Below, in pieces: positions 50,845-61,706 of a stretch of 64,000 nt of DNA (positions are counted from its first letter, which is position 1; every line of letters starts with the position of its first letter). The notes beneath the pieces were generated by a model. That model saw only the letters and a list, made by a program, of their open reading frames with translations. It did not search any database and had not been told where the DNA came from. The position numbers and the translations under genes were made by a program. The stretch comes from Bacteroides eggerthii (lineage in GTDB: Bacteria > Bacteroidota > Bacteroidia > Bacteroidales > Bacteroidaceae): positions 2,884,001 to 2,948,000 of the forward strand of contig NZ_CP102258.1 of NCBI RefSeq assembly GCF_025146565.1, read 5' to 3'.

Positions 50845-51972
50845 TTACTTCTTCAACGGAACAGAGAAATAGAATGTGGACCCTTCTCCTTTCTTAGATG
50901 TGAACCACAGCTTGCCGCCATTCTTCACAACAAAGTCCTGGCATAACAGCAATCCCAATCCTGAACCTTCTTCATTGTTCGTCCCGAATGTACTGAAATG
51001 CGTATCTGTGTGCAGTAATTTCTTTTGCCCCTCTTCATCGATACCGCAACCGTTATCCTTTACACTGATTACCGCCATATCTCCCTGTTCTTCCATTTTC
51101 ACCACCACTTCGGAATTCTCGTTGCTGAACTTAATGGCATTACTCAGCAGATTACGGATAACGGTTTTCAACATATCAATATCGGCACTGACAGGCAGTT
51201 TCTCCGTTTTTTCCTCACGAATGGTAATCTTCTTCAAGCCGGCTACTATGTTGAACACATCAATCACGCTGTCCACCACTTCCACGACATCGATATCCTG
51301 ATAAACAACATTCAAATTACCGATTTGGCTCTTCGTCCACTTCAACAAGTTATCCAGTAATGAGAATACGTCTTCCGTTGTCTGATTAGCCATTGTCAGC
51401 AGTTCGTACATTTCACTGCCGATCTTTTCGACAGGAAGATTAAGAATCATCATATTCAGCACCATCTTGATCGATCCCATCGGGGAACGCAGATCATGTG
51501 CTATGACCGAATATAGCTTATCACGCCCGGCAATGGTGTGCTGAAGTTCTTCTGTCTTATTCAATATGATGCGTTTGGCCGCCACCAACGAAATCTGGTG
51601 AGTTACACGAATAATCAATTCTTCCTTGTTGAAAGGTTTGGATATAAAATCATTGGCTCCTACCTGGAAACCTTTCACAATATCCGTTGTACTGTTCAGT
51701 GCAGTTAAAAAGATGATTGGAATATCTGCCGTATCGGGATTGGACTTGAGACGTTGTGCAACTTCAAACCCACTTAAATCCGGCATCATTACATCCAGCA
51801 GAACCAAGTCCGGATGCTCCTTATCCACCTGTTCCAAAGCCTGCTGCCCATTGTTGGCCGTAGCAATCGCAAACTTCTCATTTGTTAAGAGTACCTTCAA
51901 CAACAATACGTTGGACATCACATCGTCTACGATGAGAATCTTGTACTCAGAAGGATTTATTTCCATGTTCAT
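50845..51972 (-). CDS. Soluble response-regulator/histidine-kinase hybrid
   Basis: A 375-residue cytoplasmic signalling protein. A receiver domain comes first (about 5-125, phospho-Asp60 in LVLLDVMMPD, Thr90, Lys112), then a HisKA domain with His159 in VIAHDLRSP and a HATPase domain with NLLSNAIKF, DNGCGI and GSGLGLLL. There is no membrane helix or DNA-binding domain, so it must act through partners. The start may be ATG 51972 (used here), ATG 51966, or a TTG at 52017 that would overlap the uxs stop. It lies downstream of uxs in the same direction. Confidence 0.88.
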   Translation of the reverse strand: MNMEINPSEYKILIVDDVMSNVLLLKVLLTNEKFAIATANNGQQALEQVDKEHPDLVLLDVMMPDLSGFEVAQRLKSNPDTADIPIIFLTALNSTTDIVKGFQVGANDFISKPFNKEELIIRVTHQISLVAAKRIILNKTEELQHTIAGRDKLYSVIAHDLRSPMGSIKMVLNMMILNLPVEKIGSEMYELLTMANQTTEDVFSLLDNLLKWTKSQIGNLNVVYQDIDVVEVVDSVIDVFNIVAGLKKITIREEKTEKLPVSADIDMLKTVIRNLLSNAIKFSNENSEVVVKMEEQGDMAVISVKDNGCGIDEEGQKKLLHTDTHFSTFGTNNEEGSGLGLLLCQDFVVKNGGKLWFTSKKGEGSTFYFSVPLKK

Positions 51973-52013
51973 CTTTGTATTATATTTTTTCCCGTTATCA
52001 AGATCGTGTTTAT

Positions 52014-52949
52014 TCAAGAACGATACTTACTGAAATATTCAATTATGCGACACAGCCCTTCTTCCAATTCAATAGTAGGCTGCCACTTCAGTTTGCTTTT
52101 TGCCAACGTAATATCCGGCTGACGCTGTTTAGGGTCATCATGCGGCAATGGTTTAAATATCAATTTCGATTTGGAACCTGTCAGCTTAATAACTTTTTCC
52201 GCCAACTCAAGAATGGAGAATTCATGCGGATTGCCCAAATTAACCGGACCGATAAATTCATCTTCCGTATCCATCATACGCACCATTCCTTCTATCAAAT
52301 CGTCCACATACTGAAAGCTACGGGTTTGGGTGCCCGAACCGTATATCGTTATGTCCTCGTCCTGCAATGCCTGAACCACAAAATTAGAAACAACACGTCC
52401 GTCATCGGGCAACATACGAGGACCGTATGTATTGAATATACGTATAATCTTAATGCGTATCCCGTTCTGGCGGTGATAATCCATAAATAATGTTTCGGCA
52501 CAACGCTTGCCCTCGTCATAACAAGAACGAATTCCGATCGGGTTCACATTTCCCCAATAGCTTTCCACTTGAGGATGCACAACGGGATCACCATAGATTT
52601 CGCTGGTTGACGCCTGCATGATTTTTGCATTTGTCCTCTTTGCCAGCCCCAACATATTGATAGCTCCCAACACCGAGGTCTTAATAGTCTTTATGGCATC
52701 GTGCTGATAGTGCACCGGAGACGCAGGACAGGCCAGATTGTAAATTTCATCAACCTCTGCCTCATAAGGAAATTCCACATCATGATGTACAAATTCAAAG
52801 CGGGAATTCCCTTTCAGATGAGCTATATTCTTCTCCGAACCGGTAAAGAGGTTATCCAAGCATATCACTTTGTGTCCGTCTCTAATCAAGCGGGTACACA
52901 AATGAGAACCTATAAAACCGGCCCCACCACTAACCAAGACTTTTTTCAT
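52014..52949 (-). CDS. uxs: UDP-glucuronate decarboxylase (UDP-xylose synthase)
   Basis: Converts UDP-glucuronate to UDP-xylose with bound NAD; cytoplasmic, 311 residues, short-chain dehydrogenase fold. NAD motif GGAGFIGSH (8-16), active-site stretch STSEIYGDP with Glu117, and Tyr144/Lys148 in YDEGK. The sequence [33 protein letters not shown] is typical of UXS. The product feeds surface glycans. No other sugar-nucleotide genes are adjacent; the downstream gene is a signalling kinase. Confidence 0.93.
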
Positions 52950-53064: not shown

Positions 53065-53592
53065 TTAAGGAATATATTCCGGCTTATTATCAGGAATACT
53101 GAAATCTTTATTGGCAAACAAATCTGCCAAACCTGAAATCTGTTTCAGTCGAAGCAATTCATCGCGGTCCATTCCTATATTTTTCATTATCCACTGGTCG
53201 GACATGCCGGCATGATCCAATTCTGCAACAATGTTACACATCAGTTCGATGTTGTGTGTTCCTCGCGCACGATTATGACGGATGGTGGATGCCATGCGGT
53301 TGGACAATTCCTTATCAATCACAACCACAGGCAACAGACCATTCTCACGCTGATAGATCCTCTTGGAAGTTTTCAAAACCTGATAACGGTGATACCCGTC
53401 GACCAAAATATAACTATCTTTCTCTTCGTCATAATAACAGACACAAGGCATTGTAAAACCATCCTCCCAGATAGACAGTTCCAATAATTTCATTTCGGGC
53501 GGCGCCACTACATTGGGGTTATAATCATTGGCTTGTATTTTTTCTACCGGAACCGCTTTTACACCATATACCGGGCTCTTATCTACACTCAT
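53065..53592 (-). CDS. ParB/sulfiredoxin-fold protein, IbrB-like
   Basis: A 175-residue protein with a ParB-type N-terminal domain: VEKIQANDYNPNVVAPPEMKLLELSI, the DGYHRYQ motif (65-70) and RHNRARGTHN (105-114), which replaces the second ParB box. A helical region follows (IVAELDHAGMSDQWIMKNIGMDRDELLRLKQ), like a helix-turn-helix. It lacks the rest of a partition ParB and no parA is present. Its start overlaps the PAPS-reductase-like stop by 4 bases. The pair matches IbrB/IbrA of E. coli, whose mechanism is unsettled. Confidence 0.85.
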   Translation of the reverse strand: MSVDKSPVYGVKAVPVEKIQANDYNPNVVAPPEMKLLELSIWEDGFTMPCVCYYDEEKDSYILVDGYHRYQVLKTSKRIYQRENGLLPVVVIDKELSNRMASTIRHNRARGTHNIELMCNIVAELDHAGMSDQWIMKNIGMDRDELLRLKQISGLADLFANKDFSIPDNKPEYIP

Positions 53593-54878
53593 AGCATCAT
53601 ATTTTTGAATTGTTCCATTATTTTGTCTCGCTTGTATATCTCTTCTTTCGTCAGAGCAAATCCCATATACTTACATGCGTGGTCATTCTTTAGGATGCAA
53701 ATGCACATGCGTTTGTATGTGGGTATTTCCCGAAATTCCGCAATATCGATATCATCCAGATAGTCCATGCGGACGGGTTTCTTATTTGTCTTGTAGTTGG
53801 TATGGTTCACCACTTCGAAAGAAACACCCGCATCCTGCAATTTCTTGATAGTACCCTCCGAAAGGCATCCTCCTTTGGTACGCCAAAACTCAATGCTGAC
53901 AGTCAGCTTCTTTAAGTAGTTACGCCGGGTCTCTTCGGGCAGGGTGGAAAGCAGAAACTGCATAAAGCTTTTCCACGTATACCCCTCAGGTATCCGCACG
54001 CTCTGCCACCCCATGGCATGAGTTCCGCCATAGATTCCCGTAAAGTTCACTCCATTGACACGTCCTATCATCTTTCCCCAAGTATTAGGGTCTATCACCT
54101 TATATAAAGCCAGACTTTCCTGCGCTTCGCAAAGAAACGGACTGGCCACACGCTGGCGCTCTATGTTGACACCTGCCTTATAATACAAATCGTATAAATG
54201 ATTGTAGTCGAAGCCGAACTTTCCATTGGCAGTCCATATGTCCGTTGTCTTCCAATCATAGATAGGATACGCATTGTATATGTCATTGCCGATTTTGGAA
54301 GTCCACCTGTAATTATGATACATCTGGTATTTCCGGTTCAGATGAATGCTGCGCCAGCGGTTGAAGCTCTCCTGTGTACGAATTCCTATAAGAAAGCAGG
54401 TGCGTACCGCATCTTTCCGCAAATGCAGCCATTTGGCAAAGTGCATCTGATATTCGTAATCCCACATATTCTCCGTATAAAAAGGAAAAGCTTCTTTGGT
54501 ATAGGAATTGGCAGGCATCTGGCGCACCCAAAGCTCTTTCATGCTTTCATCCCATGGACGCCAATAGCTTTGATACATAGAGGTGCAGGTGGTGACCTTG
54601 AAAGGTACACATACGCGATATACTTCCAGAATATCCTTATTAGCCTCCAATATACGGTCTACATAGTCTATGGTCACAGTATATTGTATCTCATAATCCA
54701 TGTGAAATACACATAATTTTTGTTTGAGGTTATTACGCCGGATATAGTCTATACACAGGTTCAGTAATACACCGCTGTCCTTCCCTCCGGAAAAAGACAC
54801 GCATATTGTATCGAACTCTCTAAAAATCAATTCTAAACGTTCCTGTGCAAGTTCGTATACATTTTTAGGTGTGGCCAT
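53589..54878 (-). CDS. PAPS-reductase-like ATP pyrophosphatase with DUF3440, IbrA-like
   Basis: A 429-residue PP-loop enzyme. The PP-loop is SGGKDS (30-35) in ICVSFSGGKDSGVLL; YPIYDWKTTDIW is the second family motif. The C-terminal half matches DUF3440 and contains Cys392, Cys394 and Cys402, a possible metal or thiol site. True PAPS reductases are shorter and have a catalytic ECG-H-type tail that is not seen here, so sulfate assimilation is unlikely. No cys genes are near. Coupled to the ParB-like gene by a 4-base overlap and to the upstream GNAT-like gene by a 2-base gap. Confidence 0.88.
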   Translation of the reverse strand: MATPKNVYELAQERLELIFREFDTICVSFSGGKDSGVLLNLCIDYIRRNNLKQKLCVFHMDYEIQYTVTIDYVDRILEANKDILEVYRVCVPFKVTTCTSMYQSYWRPWDESMKELWVRQMPANSYTKEAFPFYTENMWDYEYQMHFAKWLHLRKDAVRTCFLIGIRTQESFNRWRSIHLNRKYQMYHNYRWTSKIGNDIYNAYPIYDWKTTDIWTANGKFGFDYNHLYDLYYKAGVNIERQRVASPFLCEAQESLALYKVIDPNTWGKMIGRVNGVNFTGIYGGTHAMGWQSVRIPEGYTWKSFMQFLLSTLPEETRRNYLKKLTVSIEFWRTKGGCLSEGTIKKLQDAGVSFEVVNHTNYKTNKKPVRMDYLDDIDIAEFREIPTYKRMCICILKNDHACKYMGFALTKEEIYKRDKIMEQFKNMML

Positions 54879-54880
54879 AA

Positions 54881-55276
54881 TTATCTATCTTTTTTCATTT
54901 TCACATAACGAGTCCAGATTTTTTCCTCAGAAAAACCCAAATCCTTAAAAAGAGAACTGTGTTCCATAAAAGTCACTGAAGTTAATTCCTTACTTGTGTT
55001 TGTTTCTGAAATGACTTTCTCTAATAACAATTTCAGCGTGTCTTCATTATTACTTTCTATATAATAGTTGTTGATGACATACTCCTTCTTCTTCTCCTCT
55101 ACCGGTATAAAACCTATGACTTTCTTTTTGTCTACCGCCACAAACCAAACAAAATCTTCTGATGTACGAAATGGATAGTTATAATTCTGCTTCAATATTT
55201 CAGGATTCATCACCAATGGCGCAACAAGCTCATACAGCCGCTTATCTGTTCCCTGTAATTGTATAATTTGTACCAT
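54881..55276 (-). CDS. Small GNAT-like protein heading the IbrA/IbrB-like cassette
   Basis: A 131-residue protein with GNAT features: FVWFVAVDKKKVIGFIPVEEKKKEYVINNYYI (strands 2-4) and HSSLFKDLGFSEEKIWTRYVKMKK at the end. The usual acetyl-CoA loop (Q/RxxGxG/A) is not visible; ESNNEDTLKLLLEKVI stands there instead, so catalytic activity is uncertain. The gene is more AT-rich than the two after it. It is first in the three-gene unit with its own -7 box. Confidence 0.7.
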   Translation of the reverse strand: MVQIIQLQGTDKRLYELVAPLVMNPEILKQNYNYPFRTSEDFVWFVAVDKKKVIGFIPVEEKKKEYVINNYYIESNNEDTLKLLLEKVISETNTSKELTSVTFMEHSSLFKDLGFSEEKIWTRYVKMKKDR

Positions 55277-55313: not shown

Positions 55314-55321
55314 CAAAGATA
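55314..55321 (-). promoter_or_regulatory. -7 box (TATCTTTG) of the GNAT/IbrA/IbrB-like cassette
   Basis: A perfect match on the minus strand, 37 bases before the ATG. No TTG at the right spacing was found. Confidence 0.5.
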
Positions 55322-60633: not shown

Positions 60634-61185
60634 ATGAAATACTTGATTTTATTCCTTACATTTGCCAAAATAGGGATGTTTACTATCGGCGGCGGATATG
60701 CCATGATTCCTCTTATTGAACGTGAAATTGTAAATAAAAAATGGATGACCAAAAACGACTTTATGGAAATGTTCGCATTGACCCAATCTCTACCGGGAGT
60801 ATTTGCTGTAAACATATCCATTTTTGTCGGCTACAAACTGCATAAAGTAAAGGGCAGTCTGGTATGTGCCTTAGCTACCATACTTCCCTCCTTTGTCATT
60901 ATGATGCTGATAGCAATGTTCTTTGCACGCTTTCAGGACAATCAAACAATGATACGCATATTCAACGGAATTCGTCCGGCAGTAGTGGCTTTAATCGTAT
61001 TCCCCTGCATTTCTGCTGTACGTGCCTTGAAGCTGAAATACTGGCAGTTGGTGCTTCCCGCCATCGCTACATTACTTATATGGCAATGCGGACTGTCACC
61101 TGTCTACATCGTCTTGGCAGGAATTGCCGGCGGGCTCATCTACACATTATGGTTAAAAGATAAACTGACAAAATTACAAGCATGA
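60634..61185 (+). CDS. chrA: Chromate transporter, first half (short-chain ChrA)
   Basis: A 183-residue membrane protein, one domain of the chromate ion transporter family. FAKIGMFTIGGGYAMIPLIEREIVNKKWMTKNDFMEMFALTQSLPG is the family N-terminus. About six helices. Short ChrA proteins occur in pairs and work together as the equivalent of one long ChrA; chromate or another oxyanion is exported. Overlaps the second half by 4 bases. Natural substrate in a gut bacterium unknown. Confidence 0.92.
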   Translation: MKYLILFLTFAKIGMFTIGGGYAMIPLIEREIVNKKWMTKNDFMEMFALTQSLPGVFAVNISIFVGYKLHKVKGSLVCALATILPSFVIMMLIAMFFARFQDNQTMIRIFNGIRPAVVALIVFPCISAVRALKLKYWQLVLPAIATLLIWQCGLSPVYIVLAGIAGGLIYTLWLKDKLTKLQA

Positions 61186-61706
61186 TTTATTGGCAACTGA
61201 TCTTGGTCTATCTAAAAATTGGGATGTTCGGGTTCGGGGGTGGTTACGCCATGCTCTCGCTTATTCAGCATGAAGTAGTAGATCACTATCAATGGCTCAC
61301 ACTCCAGCAATTTACGGATGTCGTAGCTATCTCACAAATGACTCCGGGACCCATCGGCATCAACAGTGCCACTTATGTGGGATACTCCGTCACTCAAAGT
61401 GTATGGGGCGCCATTGCTGCTACAATAGCAGTCTGCCTGCCTTCATTTATATTAGTGCTGCTTATTTCCTATTTCTTTGTGAGATGCAAAGACAATAAGT
61501 ACATCAAAGCTGCCATGTCCGGACTGCTGCCAATGTCCGTTTCATTGATTGCTGCGGCAGCTCTGTTGCTGATGAACAAAGAAAATTTCATAGATTATAG
61601 AAGCAGCCTGATTTTCGCAGTCGCTTTCGGAGTAACCTGGAAATGGAACATACACCCCATTCTGCTGATAACATTGTCAGGAATAGCCGGATATATCCTC
61701 TATTAA
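61182..61706 (+). CDS. chrA: Chromate transporter, second half (short-chain ChrA)
   Basis: The 174-residue partner with the same family start (YLKIGMFGFGGGYAMLSLIQHEVVDHYQWLTLQQFTDVVAISQMTPGPIGINSATYVGY). The PGPIGINSATYVGY stretch marks the C-terminal type of domain. ATGA overlap with the first half means coupled translation, as needed for a one-to-one complex. It ends 8 bases from the convergent MFS gene and no terminator is apparent. Confidence 0.92.
   Translation: MIYWQLILVYLKIGMFGFGGGYAMLSLIQHEVVDHYQWLTLQQFTDVVAISQMTPGPIGINSATYVGYSVTQSVWGAIAATIAVCLPSFILVLLISYFFVRCKDNKYIKAAMSGLLPMSVSLIAAAALLLMNKENFIDYRSSLIFAVAFGVTWKWNIHPILLITLSGIAGYILY

Follow-up and report, generated by a model that had tools for sequence, protein, structure and literature searches.

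IbrA and IbrB are a named protein pair, already known as a prophage co-activator in Escherichia coli, as the products of the K-12 ybdNM genes that CitR represses, and from viruses. In the passages of the literature accessible to us, to which all statements on published work refer, the pair is reported from an Asgard archaeal virus (PMC8813620) and also noted in viruses by a second paper (PMC4490671), and a Flavobacterium phage carries two open reading frames (ORFs) 5′ of IbrAB (PMC4541368). Proteins with the ParB fold bind CTP, ATP or GTP, and one is fused to an acetyltransferase, according to a survey whose main text, as accessible, contains no Ibr, 3′-phosphoadenosine 5′-phosphosulfate (PAPS), phosphoadenosine, ectoine, cupin or YbdM (PMC12704722); DpdB, a ParB-like NTPase, aids a base-modifying enzyme in 7-deazaguanine insertion (PMC12839542). 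The Ibr family spans phages of several hosts, plasmids, the archaeal virus and E. coli K-12; its members are annotated in records as PAPS reductase, ParB-like partition protein or prophage co-activator, and their chemistry is unnamed in the literature found. Here we describe a three-gene cassette, encoding a GNAT-fold, an IbrA-like and an IbrB-like protein (Table 1), in a 64,000-nucleotide stretch of Bacteroides eggerthii DNA (contig NZ_CP102258.1, positions 2,884,001 to 2,948,000; hereafter the window). We tentatively propose that it is a chromosomal member of a phage-shared IbrA–IbrB family, whose products may form an ATP-driven nucleic-acid modification complex acting most probably on DNA.

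The GNAT, IbrA and IbrB genes form one unit

The cassette consists of three minus-strand ORFs, as a first-pass annotation made from the letters alone had reported: 2 bases (54879-54880) separate the GNAT and IbrA genes, and IbrA and IbrB overlap by 4 (53589-53592, ATGA). Their description as one unit is upheld by 247 Bacteroidales genomes, drawn evenly from the order and profile-searched for GNAT and IbrA. The GNAT family is found in 16 of them and full-length IbrA in 18 (at a threshold of E<1e-140, chosen after viewing the list; at E 1e-3 the IbrA profile matches 176 of the 247, apparently via other PP-loop proteins), and by coordinates every one of the 16 GNAT genomes has an adjoining full-length IbrA gene. 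The GNAT and IbrA genes belong together far beyond chance (hypergeometric p 2.7e-23, shared ancestry of the genomes being ignored).

Whether the three genes lie apart in most genomes, a question raised by the annotation, can be answered in the negative: among 79 genome loci from a scan that favours close kin, because it was keyed to the window IbrA's own peptides, 75 come, by record title, from Bacteroidota and 67 of these have all three genes inside 200 bp. The eight exceptions comprise two contig ends (L091, L096), one IbrA in two frames (L088), three loci with IbrB and no intact GNAT (L067, L090 and L083, which begins at a contig edge with a GNAT remnant) and two orphan IbrA genes (L071, L075). 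The two-frame IbrA of L088 (B. faecichinchillae JCM 17102) and an IbrB in two pieces at L051 are possibly assembly errors or pseudogenes. The distribution inside the genus is patchy, with 17 positive genomes out of 37, not all of them complete; among 345 phylum-wide genomes PF11922 is detected in three (E<=1e-20) and the GNAT profile in three, two being common to both and the third GNAT match being weak (E 5.7e-4).

The cassette is under purifying selection, with ratios of nonsynonymous to synonymous substitution (dN/dS) of 0.006-0.018 for IbrA and IbrB and 0.03-0.05 for the GNAT; these ranges rest on three relatives, values for two others (L026, L029) being partly undefined because dS is saturated.

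Viral modules couple IbrA–IbrB to recurrent partner enzymes

A tblastn search with IbrA gave matches in 218 of 50,697 phage records, 40 of which span 80% or more of the query, and in 598 of 72,556 plasmid records, of which 568 do. A helicase-type gene stands directly 5′ of IbrA–IbrB in three phages, two of Streptococcus and one of Lactobacillus, and five such upstream proteins scanned with Pfam all match SNF2 above cut-off, four of them also Helicase_C. In a wider set of 83 viral loci (the best 80 of at least 378 confirmed IMG/VR loci, near-copies kept, plus the three named phages, L105-L107), IbrB lies within ~3 kb of IbrA in 81, and the partners include a helicase in 38, a GNAT in 6 and an ectoine-synthase-like (EctC) cupin in 33, of which 15 are fused to IbrB. 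Helicase and EctC do not co-occur at these loci, and on some viral contigs the GNAT, or the EctC-like cupin, sits between IbrA and IbrB. A ResIII-type helicase cluster, distinct from the SNF2 type, is present at 20 viral loci, and methyltransferase-like genes are also found among neighbours in the wider family. Outside this count stand L103 and L104 (from a first-probe fetch), a plasmid record (L108) and L109, an unverified 14-kb 'Bacteriophage sp.' record that carries the GNAT–IbrA–IbrB trio.

The two EctC-like cupins that were scanned can be firmly identified (PF06339, 140.1 bits in L140 and 123.3 bits in L158, cut-off 27), and the cupin matches solved ectoine synthase 5bxx (E 4.9e-25). In the fusions it forms the N-terminus of IbrB (L158:7296-8237 and 14 further viral loci), an arrangement that recurs, with both domains, in 118 of the 120 best homologues listed (from 8000 scored, lengths down to IbrB alone being admitted); an EctC search of the B. 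eggerthii genome gave no match, and its control likewise matched nowhere. Of the six viral GNATs, three were assigned by profile (L139, L141, L186) and three by eye from gap ORFs (L122, L127, L133), and of the four scanned with Pfam, L139, L186 and L133 are supported but L122 is not. None of the GNAT partner, the coupling to a helicase and the fusion of EctC with IbrB is described in the literature reached, which included few subscription papers and no supplements.

Two Bacteroidales genomes retain a helicase–GNAT–IbrA order: in G274 (L231) a 116-amino-acid (aa) gene, helicase, GNAT and IbrA precede the contig end, and in G168 (L230) a divergent helicase is followed by GNAT, IbrA and IbrB. In G157 (L235) a ParB-like gene, an IbrA variant, a GNAT (Pfam Acetyltransf_1, 1.4e-6), a 141-aa gene and IbrB stand in a row, in surroundings that are phage-like by eye. 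Moreover, in a FastTree phylogeny of 169 IbrA rows (two rows below 330 aa being excluded), the Bacteroidales trio adjoins helicase-type viral sequences, and EctC-type rows make up one side of a branch (support 93). The simplest story would be that a phage-type helicase–IbrA–IbrB module gained a GNAT, and that the helicase was later lost in Bacteroidales, on whose chromosomes the cassette settled.

Several other viral genes were observed near the core. A protein of ~80-105 aa resembling the DUF3440 C-terminal motif lies near IbrA in 29 of the 83 loci (for example L163:712-978), and an unannotated protein of ~143 aa (L168:8197-8628) belongs to a cluster found near IbrA in 24. A protein of ~107-116 aa precedes the SNF2-type helicase, its cluster covering 12 loci (for example L114:4461-4784); L234:2954-3277 and L231:5758-6108 were assigned to it by eye, and the two members scanned have no Pfam match above cut-off. 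In two helicase-form Bacteroidales genomes, a small gene that resembles an XRE-type helix-turn-helix (HTH) gene by eye follows directly 3′ of IbrB (L234:6263-6562, L232:11731-12015). L103 and L104 have IbrA and no neighbouring IbrB, with a weak IbrB-like stretch a few kb off on the opposite strand (36.5% over 52 aa, E 2e-5).

Domain architecture of the cassette proteins

IbrA combines a PP-loop/PAPS-reductase fold (residues ~1-263) with a following DUF3440 domain (PF11922, 309.7 bits against a cut-off of 25, E 7.9e-93), in agreement with the two halves recognised earlier, and is predicted to adopt a PP-loop ATP pyrophosphatase fold. Its SGGKDS motif (residues 30-35) is an intact SGGxDS PP-loop. 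In hand-chosen alignments, which underlie all conservation counts here (42 IbrA, 10 IbrB and 23 GNAT rows), S30, G32, K33, D34 and S35 are present in 42 of 42 rows, and R167, E170, R174, D208, D213, N398 and D399 are, like the PP-loop, invariant or nearly so. IbrA is not a PAPS reductase, an identity we ruled out because it lacks the ECGxH-type cysteine motif that we take to be the catalytic signature of PAPS and adenosine phosphosulfate reductases (CysH): the pattern [EK]C[GP][ILV]H is found in none of the 42 rows. At 2.294 Mb the same genome has another gene, with a frame of 305 codons, that matches the PAPS_reduct family much more strongly, and the annotation's view that the cassette does not serve ordinary sulfate assimilation stands. 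Cys392, Cys394 and Cys402, to which it had also drawn attention, are indeed present in the window protein, but they occur in 31, 24 and 38 of the 42 rows, respectively, and all together in 19; we rejected an iron–sulfur or zinc site, and a metal or sulfur role of the triad lacks support. The suggested kinship with Dnd/Ssp proteins reduces to superfamily level at most, the DndC model TIGR03183 giving 21.4 bits against a cut-off of 290.4.

IbrB carries the ParB-type DGYHR motif at residues 65-69, where it had been noted, and matches phrog_2159 (7.6e-75); DG[YF]HR and RHNRARG are retained in all 10 rows. The cysteine of GGCHR, presumably the catalytic residue of sulfiredoxins, is replaced by Y or F in all 10. 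With ParB_N at 20.3 bits, below the Pfam cut-off of 26.3, and no parA recognised among the flanking genes in the window or at the B. finegoldii locus, the annotation's dismissal of plasmid partition is supported.

For the first cassette protein, structure prediction gives a GNAT fold at high confidence. Pfam finds no GNAT match in its 131 aa and NCBIfam rimI falls below cut-off (E 0.0077), whereas the predicted structure bears out the GNAT-like partner that had been postulated; in B. finegoldii the gene is annotated as a hypothetical protein. The string [QR]xxGx[GA], which we take to be the acetyl-coenzyme A (CoA) loop signature of GNATs, appears in 2 of 23 rows, at residues 60 and 111, both outside the loop.

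Genomic setting

Table 1. Features of the cassette and its immediate surroundings (window coordinates).
Feature	Coordinates	Strand	Length	Remark
GNAT-fold protein	55276..54881	-	131 aa	gene 1 of cassette
IbrA-like protein, DUF3440	54878..53589	-	429 aa	middle gene
IbrB-like ParB/sulfiredoxin-fold protein	53592..53065	-	175 aa	last gene
Candidate Bacteroides -7 box, TATCTTTG	55314-55321	-		5′ of cassette
UDP-glucuronate decarboxylase-like gene	52014..52949	-		context, outside cassette; frequent downstream neighbour
Hybrid sensor kinase/response regulator	50845..52017	-		context, outside cassette; frequent neighbour

The perfect -7 box claimed earlier is present 5′ of the cassette, assigned by what we take to be the Bacteroides consensus, but on its own it is weak evidence because the motif is common in the window (TANNTTTG has 71 copies in the 64 kb, where shuffles expect 56.7); two of nine aligned relatives (L024, L047) keep the box unchanged. 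Homologues of the decarboxylase-like gene (so annotated in B. finegoldii), of the hybrid kinase and of an AddB-like neighbour lie near the cassette in 22, 23 and 26 of the 79 loci, respectively, and the notion of a recent mobile island is weakened because these same chromosomal neighbours recur. A 125-kb B. finegoldii record labelled as a plasmid (NZ_OY725969.1, L108) has the cassette and its neighbours as they stand on chromosomes, and its label is doubtful for that reason. Elsewhere in the window, two adjoining short membrane proteins (60634-61706) resemble, by eye, a split chromate-transporter pair.

The B. eggerthii genome also contains a second, orphan IbrA (3783238-3784506; L233:9232-10512) that is 66% identical to the first and whose nearest tree row is an IMG/VR contig (84%); by eye, it adjoins an IS256-like transposase and a ParA-like gene.

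A candidate modification system and its alternatives

Our tentative inference is that the cassette is kin to a modular nucleic-acid modification system carried by phages and has settled on the chromosome. IbrA would adenylate a substrate, in the manner of FAD synthase, TilS and other PP-loop enzymes, with no PAPS reduction; IbrB would bind nucleic acid, and its binding or hydrolysis of a nucleoside triphosphate (NTP) may load or position IbrA. In phage forms the helicase could open the DNA or move along it in search of sites; the Bacteroidales form may have lost this step or may rely on the host for it. Substrate choice or tailoring of the attached group would fall to the GNAT-fold subunit. 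In Bacteroidales it may work without acetyl-CoA, given that it has lost the CoA loop but keeps other regions conserved; EctC partners may have a similar role. Helicase, GNAT and EctC couplings recur, and the proposal therefore makes a concrete and cheap prediction, a modified nucleoside. In a bolder version, which we regard as rather improbable, IbrA–IbrB would be the core of an unrecognised, phage-spread hypermodification system. Here IbrA would join a group that bears an amine (amino-acid-like) to a DNA base via an adenylated intermediate, with IbrB serving as the NTP-gated clamp on DNA; GNATs would then acylate the amine and EctC cupins would close an ectoine-like ring, and gut Bacteroidales would have domesticated one branch.

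Several observations weigh against a modification complex. The one function on record, activation of prophage eib genes by E. coli IbrAB (known from a reference title in PMC10434257), is an effect on transcription; it might follow from DNA modification or might indicate that the family is regulatory. The literature passages accessible to us name no product, activity or nucleic-acid binding for IbrA or IbrB, and DpdB may itself be dispensable in some clusters (PMC12839542). Beside the cassette there is no helicase, nor was any gene for defence or DNA modification recognised there. The Bacteroidales GNAT lacks the acetyl-CoA loop, which makes tailoring by it uncertain, and Pfam finds no HTH in IbrB, a short protein whose DNA binding is thus only putative. 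No IbrB match lies within the 20 kb fetched around the orphan IbrA of B. eggerthii, nor is IbrB present in the fetched flanks of orphans L071 and L075, whose genomes also carry a complete trio (L031 and L030, respectively). Among the bridging forms, the helicase of L230 is recognised by our own model (E 1.1e-29) and by nothing in Pfam, and the nearest helicase+GNAT relative (L202) has a poorly supported position in the tree. The eight helicase+GNAT rows are scattered there, requiring 7 changes against a shuffled mean of 7.9 (42 of 500 shuffles as low), which may reflect repeated gains or losses, two histories that are not distinguishable.

The main rival, unlikely in our estimate yet to be taken seriously, is a nucleotide-switch regulator in which IbrB would be a ParB/VirB-like NTP clamp, tuned by IbrA (and GNAT) and targeting resident prophage or surface genes. 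The cited eib activation fits it, as do Shigella VirB, a ParB-like CTP-dependent activator (PMC10770331), and the LysR-type repression of ybdNM by CitR in E. coli K-12, together with the suggestion of YbdM as a possible transcription factor (PMC9068703). Against it, the PP-loop of IbrA is intact in every row and under strong selection, beyond the need of a passive cofactor, the repeated association with enzymes (EctC, GNAT, helicase, methyltransferase-like) suggests chemistry, and the missing Pfam HTH counts here as well. That the modification marks self DNA, or masks phage DNA from host nucleases, and is kept by Bacteroidales for protection seems to us improbable: the family is phage-borne and patchy in the genus, phage-form helicases show partial matches to the models for ZorD, DpdE, DrmD and BrxH, and L166 encodes a ResIII-type helicase that a type IV restriction model recognises (E 2.9e-43), but no restriction or effector gene is recognised beside the window copy, whose chromosomal neighbours recur. 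Nor does PADLOC recognise a defence gene among six window neighbours (E 1e-5; two partial, generic matches), and in the cassette it gives IbrA low-scoring, superfamily-level matches only (DndC, 26.1 bits), IbrB and GNAT none, with no specific model for any of the three. Of the earlier 'modification or defence-like' proposal, modification fits the wider family with its SNF2 helicase, GNAT, EctC and methyltransferase neighbours, while a defence-island setting is not supported; the earlier interpretation overall is partly supported.

Decidedly improbable is a group of tRNA- or rRNA-modifying enzymes comparable to TilS, TtcA or TtuA, with which the accessory, patchy distribution agrees poorly; Pfam finds no RNA-binding domain in any of the three proteins, and SNF2-type helicases and ParB-fold proteins are mostly DNA-associated. 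Least probable in our view is small-molecule metabolism, an ectoine-like or sulfur-linked pathway that phages would have taken over for auxiliary metabolism, to which the frequent EctC-like cupins and the labelling of a PAPS-reductase-type phage gene as an auxiliary metabolic gene (PMC10434257) would point; yet 15 of the 33 EctC loci have the cupin fused to ParB-like IbrB, no ectA or ectB is recognised by eye among the 30 largest neighbour clusters, and IbrA is without the PAPS-reductase cysteine motif. A toxin–antitoxin reading of a Listeria pair (PMC7020466) was set aside as guilt by association only. If the modification reading is true, a family so far named without a function could yield a new nucleic-acid modification.

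Comparison with known systems

The E. coli pairs, IbrA–IbrB of ECOR-9 and YbdN–YbdM of K-12, share with the window both families, their order and their tight coupling; YbdN and YbdM are 35% and 46% identical to the window proteins, and the ECOR-9 pair is alike at the level of family. In K-12, however, ybdNM has no adjoining GNAT gene and ybdN comes after the LysR regulator gene citR, and the role recorded for E. coli IbrAB in the accessible passages is gene activation, with no chemistry named. The Streptococcus and Lactobacillus phage modules are closer (IbrA 50-58%, IbrB 63-66% identical in three phages) and alike in core order, an SNF2-type helicase occupying the place of the Bacteroidales GNAT. 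EctC-type viral modules likewise combine the IbrA–IbrB core with a small enzyme tied to IbrB, except that a cupin replaces the GNAT and that many have an extra mini-DUF3440 protein. For Dnd/Ssp systems, we take DndB to be a ParB-fold protein. The DndC–DndB pair thus likewise joins a PP-loop protein to a ParB-fold protein (PMC12704722), whereas no cysteine desulfurase or DndD/E is recognised beside the cassette and the DndC score is far below its cut-off. Finally, although no tRNA-guanine transglycosylase homologue is recognised next to the cassette, which would rely on PP-loop chemistry instead, the DpdA–DpdB system resembles the Ibr family in its combination of a ParB-like NTPase helper with SNF2-type helicase kin.

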